The notes under the pieces: model-generated
What the model saw: only the letters and a program-made list of their open reading frames with translations
Databases searched by the model: none
What the model was told of the DNA's origin: nothing
Origin: Gavia stellata
Taxonomy: Eukaryota > Chordata > Aves > Gaviiformes > Gaviidae
Length of the DNA stretch: 64,000 nt
Assembly (NCBI RefSeq): GCF_030936135.1
Contig: NC_082596.1
Span: forward strand, 15,538,155-15,602,154
Direction of reading: 5' to 3'
Made by a program: the position numbers and the translations under genes
Part shown: one piece after another, positions 3,355-64,000 of the stretch
Position numbering within the stretch: position 1 is the stretch's first letter
Layout of the letters: every line of letters starts with the position of its first letter

Positions 3355-4153
3355 CATGACAGACCCATGAGCTGATGCACCATTTAACTGCTGCTCTGCT
3401 CTTCTCCTGGTAGGAAATGCACAGAAATAGCAGTAATGTCACAAGTTGCACCTGCTACTGTAGCTCATTTTTCTCTCTACTGTTTTCAGCCAGGAAGAAA
3501 ATCTCAGAGAATCAATATCTGACCAAGGATCACAATTGACCGTCTTAGGATTTGAACAACTTCTTAAGGGAGAAAAGCACAATGCAGGGGCATCACTGGA
3601 AGCTTACCTTCAGGCAAGCCAGGGAACCTGAAAATGTCAGTAGAATTTTGAAAGAAACTGTTAACTGAAGGAAAGAGGCAAAATCTTCACTGGCAACTTT
3701 CTATAAACCCTTTTATGGCATAATAGTAAGAGCATGTTAATATGTGGCTTGCCAAATATTTTTGAAAGACCTATTCAGCCCTCAGTCAGTGAAAGATTCC
3801 TTGCTTCTGACATGGGCTGAACTCACCACGGGGCAGAAGGCCACCACAAAGCAGTATTGATAGCTCGTTTGGAGGCCTTTTTAAAGGCATGTCCTTGCGC
3901 AGGCTCTCAGCAAAAGGGTAGATTTCGTTTTGTGGAAGATATCACGTCTTTCTGTGCTTGTGAGATTTGCATACACTGTATTGCCGTGTACTGCTTTGCC
4001 TTCCTGATATGGTGTCATCAGATAAGAAAAGACACTGTTGTAAAACACGCATACCAGCAAACATCATCCATGTTGTGGTAGGAAGCTTGTGTCTACATGC
4101 TGCAGCTAATACGTATTTAGCTCTAAAGGCTTTTTAGTGTAGTTCTGGAATAG

Positions 4154-9387: not shown

Positions 9388-10514
9388 CAGAATCACAGAA
9401 TCACTAAGGTTGGAAAAGACCTGTAAGATCATCAAGTCCAACCATAAAAAAAAACCCCAAAAAACCAAAAACCAAACCAAAACAAAAAACACAAAACACC
9501 CAAAAAACACAAACCACCCACAACCACAAAACACACCACAACCCACACCAAAAACAACCCACCCACACCACACAGCACCATACCCATCAAGCCACATCCC
9601 ACAATGCCATATCCACACGCTCCTTGAATACCTCCAGGGAGGGTGACTCCACCACCTCCCTGGGCAGCCTGTTCCAGTGCTTCACCACTCTCTCAGTAAA
9701 GAAATCTTTCCTAATATCCAGCCTAAACCTCCCCTGGCACAACTTGAGGCCATTTACTCTAGTCCTGTCACTAGTCACTTGGGAGAAGAGACCAACACCC
9801 ACCTCTCTGCAACCCCCTTTCAGGTAGTTGTAGAGAGCGATAAGGTCTCCCCTCAGCCTCCTCTTCTCCAGACTGAACAACCCCAGTTCCCTCAGCCGCT
9901 CCTCATAAGACTTGTGTTCCAGACCCCTCACCAGCTTTGTCGCCCTTCTCTGGACACACTCCAGCACCTCAATGTCCTTCTTGTAGGGAGGGGCCCAAAA
10001 CTGAACACAGGTTTCGAGGTGCGGCCTCACCAGAGCCGAGTACAGGGGCACGATCACCTCCCTACTCCTGCTGGCCACACTGTTTCTGATACAGGCCAGG
10101 ATGCCGTTGGCCTTCTTGGCCACCTGGGCACACTGCTGGCTCACCTTCAGCCGGCTGTCAATCAACACCCCCAGGTCCTTTTCAGCCAGGCAGCTTTCCA
10201 GCCACTCGTCCCCAAGCCTGTAGCGTTGCATGGGGTTGTTGTGGCCAAAGTGTAGGACGCGGCACTTGGCCTTATTGAACTTCATCCAATTGGCCTGGGC
10301 CCATCCATCCAGCCTGTCCAGATCCCTCTGCAGAGCCTTCCTACCCTCAAGCAGATCAACACTCCCGCCCAACTTGGTGTCGTCTGCAAACTTGCTGAGG
10401 GTGCACTCAATCCCCTCATCCAGATCATCAATAAAGATACTAAACAAGACCGGTCCCAAAACTGAGCCCTGGGGGACTCCGCTTGTGACCGGCCGCCAAC
10501 TGGATTTCACCCCC
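9388..10514 (-). mobile_element. younger CR1 LINE nested in an older CR1
   Basis: The element is in minus orientation; its octamer tail (CAGAATCACAGAATCAC on the plus strand) abuts the target site at 9388. An uninterrupted 307-codon frame (9587-10510) covers the second half of reverse transcriptase, with [15 protein letters not shown], the catalytic [10 protein letters not shown], and the C-terminal region ending [12 protein letters not shown]. It is 5'-truncated and has no natural start codon. It is flanked by TCTCA on both sides and interrupts a plus-strand CR1 that resumes at 10520. The intact frame and clear duplication suggest a fairly recent insertion. Its 3' UTR has an A/C-rich block at about 9447-9590. 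Confidence 0.95.
9447..9590 (-). repeat. A/C-rich low-complexity block in the CR1 3' UTR
   Basis: About 140 bases made almost only of A and C on the plus strand (T/G-rich on the element's sense strand) lie between the conserved 3' terminal segment and the end of the reverse-transcriptase frame. The same position in the CR1 at 60384 carries a similar block, while the CR1 at 2416 does not. It is a subfamily trait or a parallel expansion. Confidence 0.85.
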
Positions 10515-16792: not shown

Positions 16793-17780
16793 GAATCATA
16801 GAATGGTTTGGGTTGGAAGGGACCTTAAAGATCATCTAGTTCCAACCCCCCTGCCATGGGCAAGGACACCTTCCACTAGAACAGGTTGCTCAAAGCCCCA
16901 TCCAACCTGGCCTTGAACACTTCCAGGGATGGGGCATCCACAACTTCTCTGGGCAACCTGCTCCAGTGCCTCACCACCCTCATGGTGAAGAATTGCTTCC
17001 TTATATCTAATCTAAATCTTCCCTCTTTCAACTTAAATCCATTACCCCTTGTCCTATCACTACATGCCCTTGCAAGAAGTCCCTCTCCAGCTTTCTTGTA
17101 GGCCTGCTTCAGGTACTAGAAGGCTGCTCTAAGGTCTCCCCAGAGCCTTCTCTTCTGCAGGCTGAACAACCCCAACTCTCTCAGCCTGTCATCATAGGAG
17201 AAGTGCTCCAGCCCTCTGATCATCTTTGTGGCCCTCCTCTGGACCAGCTCCAACAGGTCCATGTCCTTCTTGTGTTGGGGGCCCAGAGCTGGATGCAGTA
17301 CTCCAGGTGGGGTCTCATGAGAGCAGAGTAGAGGGGGAGAATCGCCTCCCTTGACCTGCTGGTCACACTTCTTTTGATGCAGCCCAGCATACAGTTGGCT
17401 TTCTGGGCTGCAAGCGTGCACTGCCATGTCATGTTGAGCTTCTCATCAACCAACACTCCCAAGTCCTTCTCCTCAGGGCTGCTCTCAATCCATTCTCTGC
17501 CCAGGCTGTATTTGTGCTGGGGATTGCCCCGACCCAGGTGCAGGACCTTGCACTTGGCCTTGTTGAACTTCATGAGGTTCACATGAGCCCACCTCTCGAG
17601 CCTGTCAAGGTGAGGTCCCTCTGGATGGCATCCCTTCTCTCCAGCATGTTGACTGCACCACACAGCTTGGTGTCATCAGCAAACTTGCTGAGGGTGCACT
17701 CAGTTTTTTGGACAATCTGTCAAGAGTTGGACAGGATAAAGATGGTGAATGGAGGAAGACTGAGGGCTGCACTCTGGGGT
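16793..17780 (-). mobile_element. CR1 LINE, 5'-truncated, older subfamily
   Basis: In minus orientation, the 3' end at GAATCATAGAATGGTTTGGG is followed by 'ggaagggaccttaaagatcatct'. Two minus-strand frames shifted relative to each other encode CR1 reverse-transcriptase C-terminal sequence: [20 protein letters not shown] and [20 protein letters not shown] in one, [20 protein letters not shown] in the other. The QHKYSLG and DEKLNM signatures differ from the [13 protein letters not shown] form of the other copies, so it is a different, older subfamily. Similarity weakens after 17700 and fades near 17780, next to the CpG island. Confidence 0.88.
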
Positions 17781-18414: not shown

Positions 18415-18427
18415 ATGGCGGTGGAAG
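18415..18427 (+). CDS. SAMD12: SAMD12 coding exon 1 (start codon, MAVE plus first base of codon 5)
   Basis: The exon reads ATG GCG GTG GAA G and is followed directly by the donor GTAAGG. The start has a good Kozak context, with A at -3 and G at +4. The last base pairs with CT at the start of exon 2 to make an alanine codon, giving M-A-V-E-A, the N-terminus I know for human SAMD12. The exon lies in a CpG island. Because only 13 coding bases are present, gene predictors that work from open frames will usually miss it. Two upstream ATGs (18324 and 18399) are out of frame with this one. Confidence 0.9.
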
Positions 18428-18792: not shown

Positions 18793-18992
18793 NNNNNNNN
18801 NNNNNNNNNNNNNNNNNNNNNNNNNNNNNNNNNNNNNNNNNNNNNNNNNNNNNNNNNNNNNNNNNNNNNNNNNNNNNNNNNNNNNNNNNNNNNNNNNNNN
18901 NNNNNNNNNNNNNNNNNNNNNNNNNNNNNNNNNNNNNNNNNNNNNNNNNNNNNNNNNNNNNNNNNNNNNNNNNNNNNNNNNNNNNNNNNNNN
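18793..18992. other. assembly gap, exactly 200 Ns
   Basis: The run of N is exactly 200 bases long, which suggests a placeholder, not a measured size. It begins inside the extremely GC-rich CpG island and ends in AT-normal sequence, the usual pattern where GC-rich avian DNA failed to assemble. An unknown amount of the island, and possibly an alternative first exon, may be missing. Confidence 0.98.
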
Positions 18993-34200: not shown

Positions 34201-36378
34201 CAAGTAGAAGACCTGCACCTAGACTTAGGGAAGAGCTCCTTAGAGTTGGTTTGGGAAACGAGGCTCTGTAGCAGCTCTCTAGGTATCAGGAAGAAATTGC
34301 AGATGCCTGCCCTACTAAAATGAGACAGAAAGATGACAGATAAGGACAACAGCCACACAAACTGCTGCAGACCCCTTTTCCTTATGTGCTTTTTTTTCCC
34401 TATTAAAATAAAAAATGCTCTTATTTTTTGAGAAATTGGTGCCTGAAGGGGAAACCCAGGAGTTCCCAAAAAATTCTCAAAAGGTTTTCAGTGCTTTTAA
34501 AGCAAAACTACAAGTCTCTATGCAAGGCCTAAGCAGATGGTGGATTCCTTTCTCAAAAGAAGGCATTTTTAGCTGGAAATCCTTCTCCTGCGATCGTCTC
34601 TGGGGTAGCCAGTAGAAACCCTGCCTCACTTCCAGAAGCTCTGCATTGTTGACCTCTTCTGTTTCCTTCCCCAGAAGGATGTCTCTGCAGGGCTCAGCTG
34701 TGGATGTGATGTAGTCTAGTGATTCCTCCTCCTCCTCTTCCTCTCATGCTGTCTGCTAAAGAATTGACTATTTGGAGAGGGATCTCTGCCTCTTTTACAT
34801 ACTTCTGAAAGAAGTCCAGGACTAATCCCCTATAGCTACTCACAGTGAGACTGAAATTTAGTTCCCTTCCTGTTTTTAGTTTCATTTACTAGTTTTCTGT
34901 GGGCCAGTGACATATTGTTCTATTCTTCTATACAAAATGGCTGCAGCTTGTAATAAAACACGTTGTAATTTTTTACTGCTTTTCATCACTCAGTGTTGTT
35001 AATGAATTATCCTTTATAATGCTCCTTTGACTTGAAAATAGGAGGTGTTTCTATCCCTAGCTTGCAGATGTAGGTATTGTAGTGCTTGGACAGATCACTT
35101 ATCTTTTACAAATATTTGGATGTTTTTAAAAATCCCAAGGAGAAAAGGCCAACTTCCTGGCCTTCGCTTTAATTCTGCACCAAGAAATTGCTGTAATTTA
35201 GGCTTAAAGTTTTCAATTAAGACTCTGGGATTTCAGTTGAGTGGATTTTTCAAAAGGCGCTGTAGTTGAAGGACCCTTTGCCTTCTCTGGCTGCTTGAGC
35301 CTGTTTCCCGTGAGAGGCTTTCAAGGGCTGATCTGTAGCTGGTAGAAACTGGCAGTTCTCATTCCTTCCCCTGCTCCCCACCCTTTGCTTCTAAGCCAAG
35401 CAAGAGTAAAAGGGCAGCTTTTATTTTGACTTTACATTGTGTTTTGCGTTTCTATTCAGGTCTGTCAAACATTTCACTACAGTATCTGAGCAAAGTGCTT
35501 TCGCATACAGGGGAAGTTAGGACCATTAATTGTGAGTAGTGCTAAAAGTAGTGCAGTTGCCCAGGAACATGCATGCAAAAATCGGATACTCGCATGAAGG
35601 GGAAGTTGCCTCAGGATCCACACGTTTTAAAAGTGCTACACCTGCCAAGAAGGTTGTTCAGGCTGCTCTCTATGTCGGTGCTGGAAGTGTGAAATTTCAG
35701 ACAGAAAATGAAGAAACTGTTGCCATAGTTCTAAATGTGCATTTCTGGTTTGCATTTGTTTTATTTTTTCCACTGGCTGCTTTCCTTATTCTGCAGTCAT
35801 TAGTCCACACTTCGTTAAGTGCTCCTAGGAAGTATGTCCCTCTTGCTTGTTAGGGTGGTGTCGGTGGTAATTTGCAGTGGTACAAAGTGCTGAAGGAGAG
35901 ATAATCAGCTGTCTAAGTCATTACTCTGTGCAGAGACCGACTTGCTGTGCATAGCTTACTTATCCCACATTGTTCAGGACCTGGAATGTTGTAGTAATTG
36001 AAAATGATATAGAAAAACTTCCACTTGCTTGCCTAGAAAAGAAAAAAAGGTATGGCTGAATGATGAATATATGGGATATATTGTCCTACCCTGGTAAAAG
36101 CTGTAAGTTGAGGGTCTTGGACGCTGTAGTGAATCCAGTAGAGCACAGTTCAATATAGTAGCCTGCATTAAATAGCCTTATACTGTACTGCATTGCCTGT
36201 CATTTTCTTTCTCAAATATCTCACCCCGAATCTATGCCAAGTTACAGACAGTTCTTTTGCCATGATCTGACATAGCTCTGGCTACCACGTGGCACTTCTT
36301 AGTACTTTGTGATAAATGTTTGTAACATTGGGTTCTTCTCTCCTAAGCAGTGTTTTCTTTCTCATATTTTTTTCCCAG
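25201..36378 (+). other. SAMD12: SAMD12 intron 1, remaining part
   Basis: About 11 kb of intronic sequence up to the exon 2 acceptor. Open frames on both strands are short and without family features. I noticed no CR1 copy, tandem array or RNA gene. The longest frame, 25346-25786 on the minus strand, shows no domain. Confidence 0.65.
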
Positions 36379-36554
36379 CTATCCATTGCAATCTGAATCC
36401 AAATGGTATTGATCACCCTGTCCCCACAGAAGGTATTAATCTGCAGCTTGAAGGTGAAGGAGTTGAATCACCCTCTGTTAAGAACACTAGTACTCCAAAA
36501 GGGCCTGAGTCAAAAGAGACACCCAAGAGGCAAGTGGAGCCAGAAATATCTAAG
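36379..36554 (+). CDS. SAMD12: SAMD12 coding exon 2 (N-terminal linker)
   Basis: The acceptor is a pyrimidine run ending TTTTTTTCCCAG at 36378; the donor is AAG followed by GTAGGT at 36555. The exon is 176 bases: two bases finishing codon 5, then 58 codons (residues 6-63). It enters in phase 1 and leaves in phase 0. Recognisable pieces are NPNGIDHP, EGINLQLEGEGVES, and a lysine/proline-rich stretch with KGPESKETPKR. The region looks hydrophilic and probably disordered, with no transmembrane segment. It corresponds to the human SAMD12 linker before the SAM domain, with moderate divergence typical of such linkers. A longer open frame starting at 36309 is only read-through from the intron. Confidence 0.93.
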
Positions 36555-38544
36555 GTAGGTAGGACTGGGTTATTTATTTTGGTGAGTCTTAAAGAATCCA
36601 GGCTTCTTGAAGTCCTGCCTACTGCTTAAAAAGCATTTATCATCCTGTTAAAGACATACAAAAGTGCAAAAGTAACAGTCTGAGGAAGCGGGTGTTACAG
36701 AATCAAGGTATTGCCATGGAGTTTTAGCCCACACACACCTTGGACATTGCACTATTTTATTTTTCTCTAAATGAAGATAATTAAAATAATGGAATCTCTT
36801 TTTCAGGCACTGTGGAGACTGTTTTTCCAAATGACTTGGGTAACAACCAGAATGGGAATAGATATGTTTTTCTTGAGTGTTTTTTGTTTGCTTGTTTATT
36901 TTTTCTGGGGCAGGTAAAGGAAGAGAAAGGTTCTATGGATATATGAATATACGGATTTTTATATGGGTGACTGAGTTTAATAAACTCTTAACTAATTTTA
37001 GGTAAAATACCAGGTCAATTCTTCTGTGTCTGGTATGTCAGTGAATAAACATACTTCAGAGGTGAATTCCTAAAGATAAGTGTCTATTCTCATTCATAAG
37101 CTGCTGTTTCTTGTTTGTGTGCGACAGACATGACTACCAAGTGCAGGTGAGTGTGTGTGCTCCAGACATTTTGGGTATAGGACAATAATTTGTCATATTA
37201 GTAACTAGAACGAAAAATAAGAGAACGTTTAAAAAAAAAAAATTGGGAGACATTCTTTAAAAACCTTATCAGTCTTCTTGATCTTTAAAGGCCTAAACCC
37301 AGGGTTTTCAGGGTGATTTCTGCAGAGTGGAAAATTGAGTTTTTACTGAATCTGACACTTTGGGAGTTAATAGAGCAAATAAAATGCATGTGCTTTTTTA
37401 AAGGTCCAAAAGAGGGAATAAGAATTAATCCAATGACTGAACAAATAAGAGTATTTCCTACTGTCATCAGTACAATAAATTTAACAAATAATACGCATAA
37501 AGTTGTGATGTATTTCCTTTTTAGAATAAAATAGCATTAAACATTTTGAGCAGTAGCCTTGACAATAAAGGTTTGGTGTGAATTCTCCATTCTGATTTTT
37601 ATCTAAAACATCTCATTTTAAATGAGTACAATTTAAACTAATTTCATTTTGTCTTAAGCCATTGAACTAGATCCAGTACAGTTTGGCATTGATCAAAATC
37701 ACTACTACTTGCAGTCTGTTTTGTGGCCAATTATCAAGCATGTTGCTGATTTCTCTTGAACTCTTGGAGAACAGGTTTGTGCTTATTGCTTTGAATCATC
37801 CGTTTGGTAACAAGATCACCAAATTTGGATGGGCTTTGAGACAAAGCTCGGCTAATAATGCATTTACCCAGCTTTTTGCAGAAAAAGGCAAGCTAACCCT
37901 GCCTGTGTTTCAACATCACTATATGAAAATCTGCCCTGTATTGAAAGCTAAGGAGGTATGTTAAGCTCAGAGGAGATCTTACAAGCTTGGACATGAAGAA
38001 GCTAAATGACACAATGGGGCTTCCACTTGACAATGGGCTCGCTAAACATTTTGCTTGAGGAATAAGCTTGGCATAATAGTATCAAGCTAATGAAGTGGAC
38101 TCGTTTTTTGAATGTATTGCTGCCTTGTTAGTAACTTTGGTTTTTATGCGTGGTATTAACTTAGTGACGTTTTTCATCTGGATTCATATGGTATAGCCTG
38201 AGGAGGCTTGTCTTTTCTGGCTTGTTCTGCCTTAAATTTAAAAATCATGTTGCTTTATCCTCTAAAATGTGAATATAGAGTTGGGTTTGTAACTTGTGTG
38301 GCTTTAGGAGTTGAATTAAGCTGTCATTATGAAACTTTATCCATGCAATCATATCTGTACAGTAGAAAGATGAGCAGGAATAGAGGAAAGTATTGTAAAT
38401 AAAACATTGTGGGCAGATCCATTTGTTTTATATTTCCTCATTGCTCAGTCGTTTTTAAAAAGTTTTCTTTGCCATCCTATGTATTCAAATAATGTTAATA
38501 CATACCTCATATCCGCAGTAGTGAGACTTATATGGTACAAAGCA

Positions 38545-38560: not shown

Positions 38561-39165
38561 GCAATTTAAGATGCCTTATAGACCATCTTCTCTGCTTTCA
38601 GCTTTCTAATTTGTCTTCATTGGGACCAATTCTAGCACTTTAAACCCCTGGCTGCTTTAAGGTTTTGCTGTCCAAAGAAACAAACCAAATCTCTTTTCTG
38701 ATGAAGTGTGTCCTTCTTTTTCTGCCCTCAGCTACGGACTTGCAGAACAGTAGTAACTCATGGGCTACACATAGATTTAAAATTCTTTTTTATGTAGCTA
38801 CTGTAATGTAAATAGGGGAGTACAAGTATTTTTCTATATTTGGGATGCAGACAGCAGAAAGTGTAGTGTGAGTGAAGGATCACTCATTTAGAAGTTCCTG
38901 CTGAGTGTGGAATCTAATTTTTATAGGCTGGCTGAGGTAGGATTTTAATGGAAAATTGGGACAGTGATCTTAGTCTCCCTCAACTGGTTCCCTAAGGAAC
39001 CACATTGTTACAAATGTGAGCAAGTCCAGAAAAGGTCAAGATTATTCATGTCTAAACTGATGTGCACAATCCAGTGAGATTGTGATAATGTACAGGCTAT
39101 AATACAAATTAAGAAAATTGTATGACATGTAAAATACTTAGATTTTTGTTTTATACATGTATTTT

Positions 39166-43210: not shown

Positions 43211-44588
43211 TTTTTTCTTTTCCATTTTGAAAAATAACATAATTGCTGAGCACTGGGAGTGAAATGTGTCACAATCACAAAAGGGGTGTGGGACTGTAAT
43301 AGCCTTGATAATGTCTGAAGGGTGTTTCATGTGTTGGCAACCTGTCAAGCTTTCCCTCAGGGCAGAGGTGTACTAAGGAGGGAAGGGATTTCATTGGGAG
43401 AGTCTGGAAAAGGGTGGCTTGGGGCCAAGCGGAGTCTGTTTTCCCCTCAGTTACCATGGGTGGAATTGAGCTTGCTGATGAGGGCAACTTAATTTAAGTG
43501 TCTATATGTAAGCTAGGTGTCTAAACTCCTATTACATTTGGTGGAGATCTAGTCAGCATGCCTAGAGGAATGTAGAGGGGGAACAGACTCCATCTGAAGT
43601 GAGCACTGCTCAGCTGAATCTGTCAACGCTTTGGGGACTGCATTGACACTCTGGTTTAGGTACTCGGATCTTAAACTCATTCTGTCTTCTGCCTTACTAG
43701 CTAACCAGCCTCTGCATTTGATGTTGAAATGGTTATTAATGTCTGACGGAGGTGAAACCTTGTGTTAGGAGACTGTATTTCAGAAGCTGCATTTACTTCA
43801 AAAATCATGCTTTGAACACTTAGGATAGACTAGTCCCATGTATACAGCTACATTCAAGATAATCTTCTGGCAAGCAAATGCTGCTTAATCTGAAAAAAAA
43901 GTCTGTCTTTTGGATTAAAAGGAAGTGATTGGAGCGTGTGTGTTTCATTTTTCTCCTTTCTTTTAATTGTCTTGCACTTCAGAAGCCTATCATTCTTCAC
44001 TAGAAGTGAAATTCTTGCTCTGTGGTTCAGATTTTCCAACTGTAGAAGAATGATGATAATTAGGACCAATTAAAACTGTTGTTTCAGTAGAAAACTGAGA
44101 TTTGGAGTAAATTTGCCACCAAATTTTTTTTTTTTGCGTGTGTATGTATGTAAAATTGATTGTCCAAAAGCTCTGCAATCTGTCCCTTAAAACTGGAAAA
44201 CATTGGCTTGGTCAGGCTGCCTGAGAATAACAAATGCAGCAGCACGTTTGCTACCTGTTCCTCTCTACGGGACACATTCTCCAGCTGTTTTCTGAGGTGG
44301 GTAGTGGTGAAGGCCTCCACTGGTGTTTTGTCAGTGTCATGCCTCTGATTTTGATTGGAAGTATTTGGTGGATGGGGACTAACTTTACTAGAGTGTGCAT
44401 AGTGTTTGGCTCTGAGGGATATCTTGTCACATTTGGGGCCTCTAGTCACTGCAAAAATGCCAACAATAATGACCTCTGAAATCAAGGACGCTTTTCAGTA
44501 TGCTTTCATTTCAAATACTAGTTCTTTTTAGCTATTTCTGAATGTAGACTTCAGCCAGAAGTGTTTCTGTTTTATCTCTATTCCGCAG

Positions 44589-44705
44589 TCAGCTGCAGAT
44601 TATTTTGTAGCTGATGTGCCACTGCAGGGAGCAGGGAAACAACTCCCAAATGTAAAAGCAGACATTTTCTACAATGCCATGTATTATCAGTGGGGCAAGC
44701 AGAAG
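44589..44705 (+). CDS. candidate in-frame cassette exon in SAMD12 intron 2
   Basis: A 117-base open stretch of 39 codons is bounded by a pyrimidine-rich acceptor (TTCTGTTTTATCTCTATTCCGCAG, ending 44588) and a near-perfect donor (CAGAAG followed by GTAAGG at 44706). Both ends are phase 0. Exon 2 ends in phase 0 and exon 3 begins in phase 0, so inclusion adds 39 residues without changing the frame. The peptide begins SAADYFVADVPLQGAG and ends ADIFYNAMYYQWGKQK; it is rich in aromatic residues, with tyrosines at residues 5, 28, 32 and 33 and a tryptophan at 35. Inserted, it would sit between the linker and the SAM domain. I do not recognise the peptide from any family and do not recall it in human SAMD12. 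Alternatives are an exon of an unrelated nested transcript, or chance. The match of both splice sites, open frame and phase makes chance the less likely option. Confidence 0.55.
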
Positions 44706-45737
44706 GTAAGGAGAATGTTGTGTTTAGTGAGAGACAATTCTTCCCTTTCCCTCTTCAATTTTTTTGACCAACTGATCTGTAAGTAGCGTGGGGTTTCCTT
44801 GGCTATGAAGCCATTAAGTGAAACCTAGGCATAGTGATTCAGCCTGCGGTTGGCTTTAAGTGCCTGTGTCCTACTTCTAGTACTTCAGAGCTTGTAGTTG
44901 CATTGATGGGGTGCCTTTATATTGTCACTAACCACTCCGGGCATTTGCAGGGTTAGTTCAAAACTAAGACCGATATCCACATATGATGACTCTTAAACGA
45001 CAACAAATGCTGTACGTTTGCAATGGGGGAGCAGAGGGAGGGAGGGAGGAAGCAGTACAACAATGTTTCTTTAGAATTGGAAATGTCAGTGTTAGTGTGC
45101 AGCCAAGGCCTTCAGCACTCGGAGAAGACAAATGCTGTTGGTGATCAAGAGTGGGATCAAACATCACAAGTAATTTCCCTTTAAGAACATGAATACAATT
45201 CCTTCAACAAGTCCATGGTTTAAGAAGAGAAAAGAGATTACCTTTTGGTTTTAAGCTTATTTTAGCTTTTGAACTGTCTCTTGCTCTGTTCATGCAAACT
45301 TGTGATGTTTTCTTATTCTCAAAGTATACCAGTTGTCATCTTTAGTCTGCCAGCCCTGTGAGACCCTACAGACTGACACATGGCCATCTTCTGCCCACCA
45401 GTTTAATCTTCACTTTAACTGCCAAGCTGATCTTATTATCCCTAGAGCCTCTATCTTTTTTCCCTTCATCCATCCACCTATGGAGAGCAAAGAGTTCACT
45501 GGAGTCAAAAAGTTAGCTATGACCAGTTAAGACTGATGTAGTAGTATTCACTCTTGCTTTGCAAACTGTTGCCTGAAATGGGAGGTGCTGATCCTTGTCC
45601 CTGTGGTGCAGTGCTACCAGAGCCTGCCTATGCCTGATTCGGACTGAATAACCAGCAGAATCTGCTCAGGGCTTCCCACCAGTCTGACTGTGAGTTTGCA
45701 GCAGCAGAAGCTCAACATAGGTTTCAGGAGGCAGCTG

Positions 45738-60383: not shown

Positions 60384-61387
60384 AGAATCACAGAATCAGT
60401 ACGGTTGGAAAAGACCTGTAAGATCATCGAGTCCAACCTGTGGAAAAAAAAAAAAAAAAAACACACACAACATCAAAAAACCCACAAAAAAAAAACCCCA
60501 CAAAACCCACGCCACACAACAACAATAACAAGCCACAACCCACCCAACACCACACAGCACCATGTCCATCAAGCTACATCCGACAATGCCACATCCACAC
60601 GCTCCTTGAATACCTCCAGGGAGGGTGACTCTACCACCTCCCTGGGCAGCCTATTCCAATGTTTCACTACTCTCTCAGTAAAGAACTTTTTCCTAATGTC
60701 TAGCCTGAACCTCCCCTGTCGCAACTTGAGGCCATTTCCTCTAGTCCTGTCACTAGTCACTTGGGAGAAGAGACCAACACCCACCTCTCTGCAACCCCCT
60801 TTCAGGTAGTTGTAGAGAGCGATAAGGTCTCCCCTCAGCCTCCTCTTCTCCAGGCTAAACAACCCCAGCTCCCTCAGCCGCTCCTCATAAGACTTGTGTT
60901 CCAGACCCCTCACCAGCTTCGTCGCCCTTCTCTGGACACGCTCCAGCACCTCAATGTCCTTCTTGTAGTGAGGGGCCCAAAACTGAACACAGTATTCGAG
61001 GTGCGGCCTCACCAGAGCCGAGTACAGAGGCATGATCACCTCCCTGCTCCTGCTGGCCACACTATTTCTGATACAGGCCAGGATGGCGTTGGCCTTCTTG
61101 GCCACCTGGGCACACTGCTGGCTCATATTCAGCCGGCTGTCAATCAACACCCCCAGGTCCTTTTCTGCAGGGGAACTTTCCAGCCACTCGTCCCCAAGCC
61201 TGTAGCGTTGCCTGGGGTTGTTGTGGCCGAAGTGTAGAACCCGGCACTTGGCCTTATTGAACTTCATCCGGTTGGCCTCAGCCCATCCATCCAGCCTGTC
61301 CAGATCCCTCTGCAGAGCCTTCCTACCCTCAAGCAGATCAACACTCCCTCCCAACTTGGTGTCATCTGCAAACTTGCTGAGGGAGAG
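60384..61387 (-). mobile_element. young CR1 LINE inserted in repeat copy B
   Basis: In minus orientation, the tail AGAATCACAGAATCAG lies at 60384. The minus-strand frame (about 60569-61387) encodes [13 protein letters not shown], the [20 protein letters not shown] segment and the reverse-transcriptase C-terminus through [12 protein letters not shown] without interruption. The 5' truncation falls just before the FADD motif, at 61387; residues of that open frame beyond this point are flanking DNA. TTCTC occurs on both sides (60379-60383 and 61388-61392). An A/C-rich block follows the tail, as in the copy at 9388, to which this one is very similar. Confidence 0.95.
60442..60570 (-). repeat. A/C-rich low-complexity block in the CR1 3' UTR
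   Basis: A run of 18 As is followed by A/C-only sequence with scattered CACA and CCCAC words. It occupies the same place in the element as the block at 9447-9590. Confidence 0.85.

Positions 61388-63376: not shown

Positions 63377-64000
<624 letters not shown>

Follow-up and report, generated by a model that had tools for sequence, protein, structure and literature searches.

The analysed window, a 64,000-nucleotide stretch of the Gavia stellata genome, contains the 5' part of SAMD12, with exons 1 to 3 on one strand (Table 1). The gene was identified by its exon order together with the SAM domain on the same strand. Exon 1 starts with MAVE, which is also the start of the SAMD12 proteins among the matches listed, and exon 3 matches SAMD12 chain 9k1l and the Aveugle chains 3bs5 and 8bw8. 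A protein search of the 1.32-Gb genome of the same bird gave matches to the next two segments of Harpia harpyja isoform X1 on the same contig and strand, the first about 42 kb and the second about 52 kb downstream. Two SAMD12-like exons with 66-71% identity were also found elsewhere in the genome (L025 and L026, G000:C20:2077554-2078939, minus strand); we take them to belong probably to the paralogue SAMD10. No Rfam match was obtained across the window. A run of 200 N (18793-18992) lies in a GC-rich stretch just 3' of exon 1.

Table 1. Features of the SAMD12 locus in the Gavia stellata window
Feature	Position	Strand	Remarks
SAMD12 exon 1, coding part	18415..18427	+	ATGGCGGTGGAAG then GTAAGG donor, phase 1
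SAMD12 exon 2	36379..36554	+	176 nt, AAG/GTAGGT end, phase 0; own-genome protein match
Homologue of Grus P0047 insert	36807-36839		11/11 identical
Homologue of Anas P0019 insert	36943-37032 (region 36914-37032)		20/30 identical, stop inside
Homologue of Numida P0039 insert	37875-37952		15/26 identical
Homologue of Pezoporus P0005 insert	38732-38794		14/21 identical, donor lost
ATG directly followed by TAG, at the place of the Haliaeetus X5 start (MWTS...)	44542..44547	+	eagle first-exon start broken in window
Pyrimidine-rich tract and CAG acceptor of the cassette exon	44562..44588	+	
Candidate cassette exon	44589..44705	+	117 nt, 39 aa, no stop, phase 0-0
Donor GTAAGG of the cassette exon, after AAG	44706..44711	+	
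SAMD12 exon 3, start of SAM domain	63377..63506	+	130 nt, phase 0 start; own-genome protein match

The candidate exon lies in intron 2. The sequence-only reading had described it as a 117-base open frame with an acceptor, an AAG/GTAAGG donor and phase 0 at both ends, and these features and the coordinates were all reproduced. The segment is thus open, phase-matched and bordered by consensus splice sites, as a cassette exon should be. Its acceptor reads TGTTTCTGTTTTATCTCTATTCCGCAG followed by T (a CCGCAG border). The weak point of this acceptor is that the nearest upstream AG is just 27 nt away, and the last 70 nt before it contain one branch-like yTnAy site, whose A is at -15. Because exon 2 ends (36554) and exon 3 starts (63377) in phase 0, inclusion of the cassette would keep the reading frame. 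A role as poison exon found no support, as inclusion of the 117 nt gives neither a stop nor a frame shift. The 39-residue peptide had no match in Pfam.

The splice signals were then compared with what intron DNA contains anyway. Simple splice matrices were used to score all in-phase open pairs enclosing exons of 50-250 nt. The cassette scored 5.3 bits at the acceptor and 7.2 bits at the donor, versus 4.4 and 1.4 bits for the constitutive exon 3. No other in-phase open pair of intron 2 equalled it in both scores, and one (60854-61000) exceeded it in summed score. Of 60 dinucleotide-shuffled versions of intron 2, 1 contained such a pair; none was found in the antisense intron or anywhere on the 64-kb minus strand of the window. 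One further pair with both scores as high (17505-17609) lies in the 36 kb that precede exon 2 in the window. As a second control, real DNA was scored on both strands at 20 loci of the same genome, each 10 kb long (400 kb in total). It yielded one pair with both scores as high, or 0.07 per 26.8 kb, the length of intron 2, and 11 pairs by summed score, or 0.74 per 26.8 kb; 4 of these 11 are one recurrent 147-nt form and 3 have a common donor. The rarity of the splice scores was therefore rejected as proof by this real-DNA control, and the splice signals suggest an exon without proving one.

The main evidence comes from protein records. The conceptual long protein of 145 aa retrieved 490 relatives, and the segment was present in 4 of the best 120 that were examined (P0002, P0003, P0004 and P0079). 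Isoforms X7 (P0002) and X1 (P0003) of Harpia harpyja contain the cassette with exactly the predicted junctions and align at 95% identity across 100% of the conceptual protein. Within the exon, 33 of 39 residues are identical, with C, T, G, C, D and V in the place of F, P, D, Y, N and M of the window. The eagle models are complete at the C-terminus, whereas the window ends after exon 3. In the model of the antbird Willisornis vidua (P0004) the cassette is also internal with exactly these junctions; the ends of this model are unrelated sequence, and it may be an ab initio prediction. The fourth protein is isoform X5 of Haliaeetus albicilla (P0079), in which the cassette is joined to exon 3 (31 of 39 residues identical). 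Two protein searches restricted to the exon region, with the best five proteins taken from each, added P0122, P0123 and P0124, which are unspliced: their alignment to the window continues into intron sequence on either side. In total, 7 of the 123 retrieved proteins carried the exon; these are counts of listed proteins, P0003 standing for a cluster of 8 and P0123 for one of 6.

The named carriers, Harpia and Haliaeetus (Accipitridae) and Willisornis (Thamnophilidae), are all Telluraves, and no mammal, reptile, fowl or ratite carrier appeared among the matches listed in the exon-restricted searches. The cassette was likewise in no mammalian protein among the matches listed, and no relative was found in viral contigs, bacterial and archaeal genome contigs or plasmids. 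Most SAMD12 proteins among the best 120 of 490 join exons 2 and 3 directly. Harpia X1 and X7 have the cassette and most of the listed bird proteins, such as that of Morphnus (P0006), lack it; among the matches listed, no single species showed both forms. A published account of the NCBI pipeline states that gene models with several variants needed a single long alignment or RNA-seq support from one sample (PMC5737279). By this rule the isoforms of Harpia and Haliaeetus probably rest on reads. With scarce evidence, Gnomon is described as depending more on intrinsic signals (PMC12605758). The protein records support the proposal that a cassette exon precedes the SAM domain and keeps the frame, since Harpia X1 and X7 have exactly such a structure, and as far as protein records reach the exon is bird-specific. 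It can no longer be called undescribed, because it is already in databases as predicted isoforms of other birds, although no title or abstract that we found in the SAMD12 literature describes it. The suggestion of an ancient exon lost in mammals found no support, the only named carriers being the three Telluraves.

In Haliaeetus X5 the segment is used differently, as a 5'-extended first coding exon without exon 2. X5 starts with MWTSVRSVCFISFPQ, and P0123 and P0124 have exactly these residues immediately before the exon. As these residues are intron-encoded, X5 begins inside intron 2, just upstream of the cassette. This raises the alternative that a promoter inside intron 2 and an alternative first exon are primary and cassette use is secondary. 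The shared N-terminus speaks for it, but the exon is internal in Harpia and Willisornis, and the matching ATG in Gavia stellata runs directly into a stop, which makes this start unusable in the window. We regard this order of events as very unlikely.

To judge constraint on the peptide, its divergence was compared with that of neighbouring sequences. Between the window and Harpia, 6 of 39 residues are changed in the cassette versus 1 of 106 in exons 1-3 (p 0.0016). Against Willisornis, with the unrelated ends of its model dropped, the numbers are 9 of 39 versus 3 of 92 in the neighbouring exons (p 0.0009). The unspliced frames P0122 and P0123 made it possible to use the flanking intron, translated alike, as a yardstick. 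For the window and P0122, 10 of 39 exon positions and 15 of 67 flanking positions were changed (p 0.81); of the 117 columns 11 were dropped (8 before a frame shift and 3 gapped), P0122 residues before 60 were left out, and the flank becomes 21/75 if the 8 columns before the frame shift are counted as aligned. For the window and P0123 the values were 6/39 and 10/50 (p 0.78), the flank consisting of three ungapped pieces with the remainder dropped; one piece was read in a different frame owing to an indel, and 2 of its 3 differences are stops of the window. P0122 and P0123 themselves differ at 8/39 exon and 8/26 flanking columns (p 0.39). In none of these three pairwise comparisons, all on small samples, did the exon change significantly more slowly than the flanking intron. 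The exon-to-flank ratio was below 1 in two of the three, and weak constraint on the peptide is possible. The peptide appears to evolve about as fast as the adjacent intron, within wide limits.

The seven aligned sequences including the window (P0002 and P0003 share one) contain no indel and keep the frame, but it was their openness that led to their being found. The aromatic character noticed earlier (FYNAMYYQW) is present in the window, but it is partly private to Gavia stellata: in place of F-6, Y-28, N-29 and M-31, each of the 6 other sequences has C, C, D and V. If N-29 and M-31 are single changes, both would be G-to-A changes after C, as in CpG decay.

The origin of the segment was examined in the same genome. 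A 401-bp region around the exon matched nothing but itself in 1.32 Gb, and a protein-level search found the cassette exon at this locus alone. Descent from a transposon, which might be considered given the reverse-transcriptase-like frames elsewhere in the window, seems extremely improbable for this single-copy region. A recent transposon origin was disfavoured in particular, as further genomic copies were not found. The reverse-transcriptase-like frames are presumably CR1.

Other in-frame inserts occur at the exon 2-3 junction in Pezoporus (P0005), Numida (P0039), Grus (P0047), Pitangus (P0062) and Anas (P0019), and in the mammals Perognathus (P0081) and Lepus (P0082). These seven are optional, in frame and at the same place as the cassette, but their sequences are unrelated to it. 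Four of the seven (Numida, Pezoporus, Grus and Anas) have homologues in intron 2 of the window. The Grus homologue encodes ALWRLFFQMTW, the 11-aa insert of Grus americana isoform X2, with an acceptor of 3.2 bits and a weak donor of -1.0 bits. The Numida homologue could form an in-frame exon of 84 nt (37872-37955) with a GAG/GTATGT donor of 4.7 bits and a weak acceptor of -1.2 bits. The Pezoporus relic (38732-38797) has a strong acceptor (8.8 bits), and its last codon is TAG. Intron 2 thus seems to yield in-frame exons again and again, which would fit a near-neutral view of the cassette.

As for the protein, both mammalian SAMD12 and Drosophila Aveugle/Hyphen are SAM-domain adaptors, like the product expected from the window. 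Human SAMD12 has been reported to bind the SAM domain of CNK2 and to support ARF6 activation in cancer cells (PMC10272126), and intronic repeat expansions of the human gene to cause familial adult myoclonic epilepsy (PMC6820781). Harpia X1 was modelled with AlphaFold2 from 20 rows chosen among the 123 retrieved proteins; the model is poor as a whole (mean pLDDT 49), and in it the insert scored about 31-48 and a weak helix spans residues 85-100. In Pfam, the SAM matches of the long conceptual protein were all sub-threshold, and its match to PlyB_C, which also failed to reach the cut-off (E 0.011), was attributed to chance. Optional inclusion would add the 39 residues to a low-confidence, probably flexible linker N-terminal to the SAM domain and would leave the SAM domain, the CNK-scaffold-binding part of the family, unchanged. 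Since there is so little constraint on the insert, an effect on CNK2 binding or ARF6 activation is unlikely.

We favour, with a probability of about 0.72, a lineage-restricted alternative cassette exon of SAMD12 that arose from unique intron DNA, is optionally spliced and is near neutral. Its presence in the annotated SAMD12 of two eagles and an antbird makes the stretch look like a genuine optional exon. It would be a young, non-repeat exon born from intron 2, so far seen in the eagles, Willisornis, Gavia stellata and the sources of P0122-P0124, and in eagles the same segment may double as a 5'-extended first coding exon. Gavia stellata would splice it into some transcripts, with inclusion predicted to be minor and the added peptide expected to have little or no selected function. 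As the rate of change of the peptide is close to that of the non-coding DNA nearby, the exon is probably a minor, little-constrained variant. There is a real, though minor, chance that Gavia stellata instead has an unused pseudo-exon, an open frame between decoy sites that eagles splice and this bird splices as noise or not at all. The short AG-free zone, the four private amino-acid changes and the presence of equally good pairs by summed score at about 0.7 per intron-2 length are in its favour; the frame and both splice sites are nevertheless intact in the window, and three other birds have this exon annotated with identical borders.

A functional bird exon, selectively kept for a peptide that tunes the SAM domain or its partners, would agree with the frame and splice sites common to eagles and antbird, which also make the exon older than the split between them, and with the described action of SAMD12 through its SAM domain with CNK2 (PMC10272126). 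However, divergence of the peptide far exceeds that of the neighbouring exons and is not significantly below that of flanking intron, most listed annotated bird SAMD12 proteins lack the exon, and intact frames are expected in sequences found because they are open. We consider selective maintenance unlikely. A broader proposal, that intron 2 of bird SAMD12 is a nursery of young in-frame exons from which this cassette, older than the split between eagles and passerines, was kept as a regulated insert tuning CNK2 and ARF6 and as an eagle first exon, also seems improbable to us.

On the preferred reading of a near-neutral cassette, the locus would offer a compact, testable case of how exons arise within a long phase-0 intron, where several different inserts arose at one junction in different birds. 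The exon was called from sequence alone, and the annotation of other birds reports the same exon independently. If inclusion is regulated, birds would possess an extended SAMD12 whose linker to the CNK-binding SAM domain is altered; if it is not, the case is ordinary.

Several further segments of the window resemble parts of alternative SAMD12 forms. Just upstream of exon 2, 35569-35745 is open and homologous to the N-termini of Athene P0026 (74% over 38) and Phaethornis P0073 (59% over 59), and may be an alternative first exon. The segment 34135-34281 is a homologue of the alternative N-terminus of Patagioenas P0056 (55% over 49 columns). About 15 kb upstream of exon 1, 3582-3707 is homologous to the N-terminus of Pitangus P0062, with a stop inside, and is a possible distal first exon. 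At 9872-10018, a 147-nt in-phase pseudo-exon with scores of 8.5 and 4.5 overlaps a reverse-transcriptase-like region, presumably CR1; the same pseudo-exon comes back, nearly equal in score, at 4 of the 20 control loci, and the repeat may carry ready-made splice sites.
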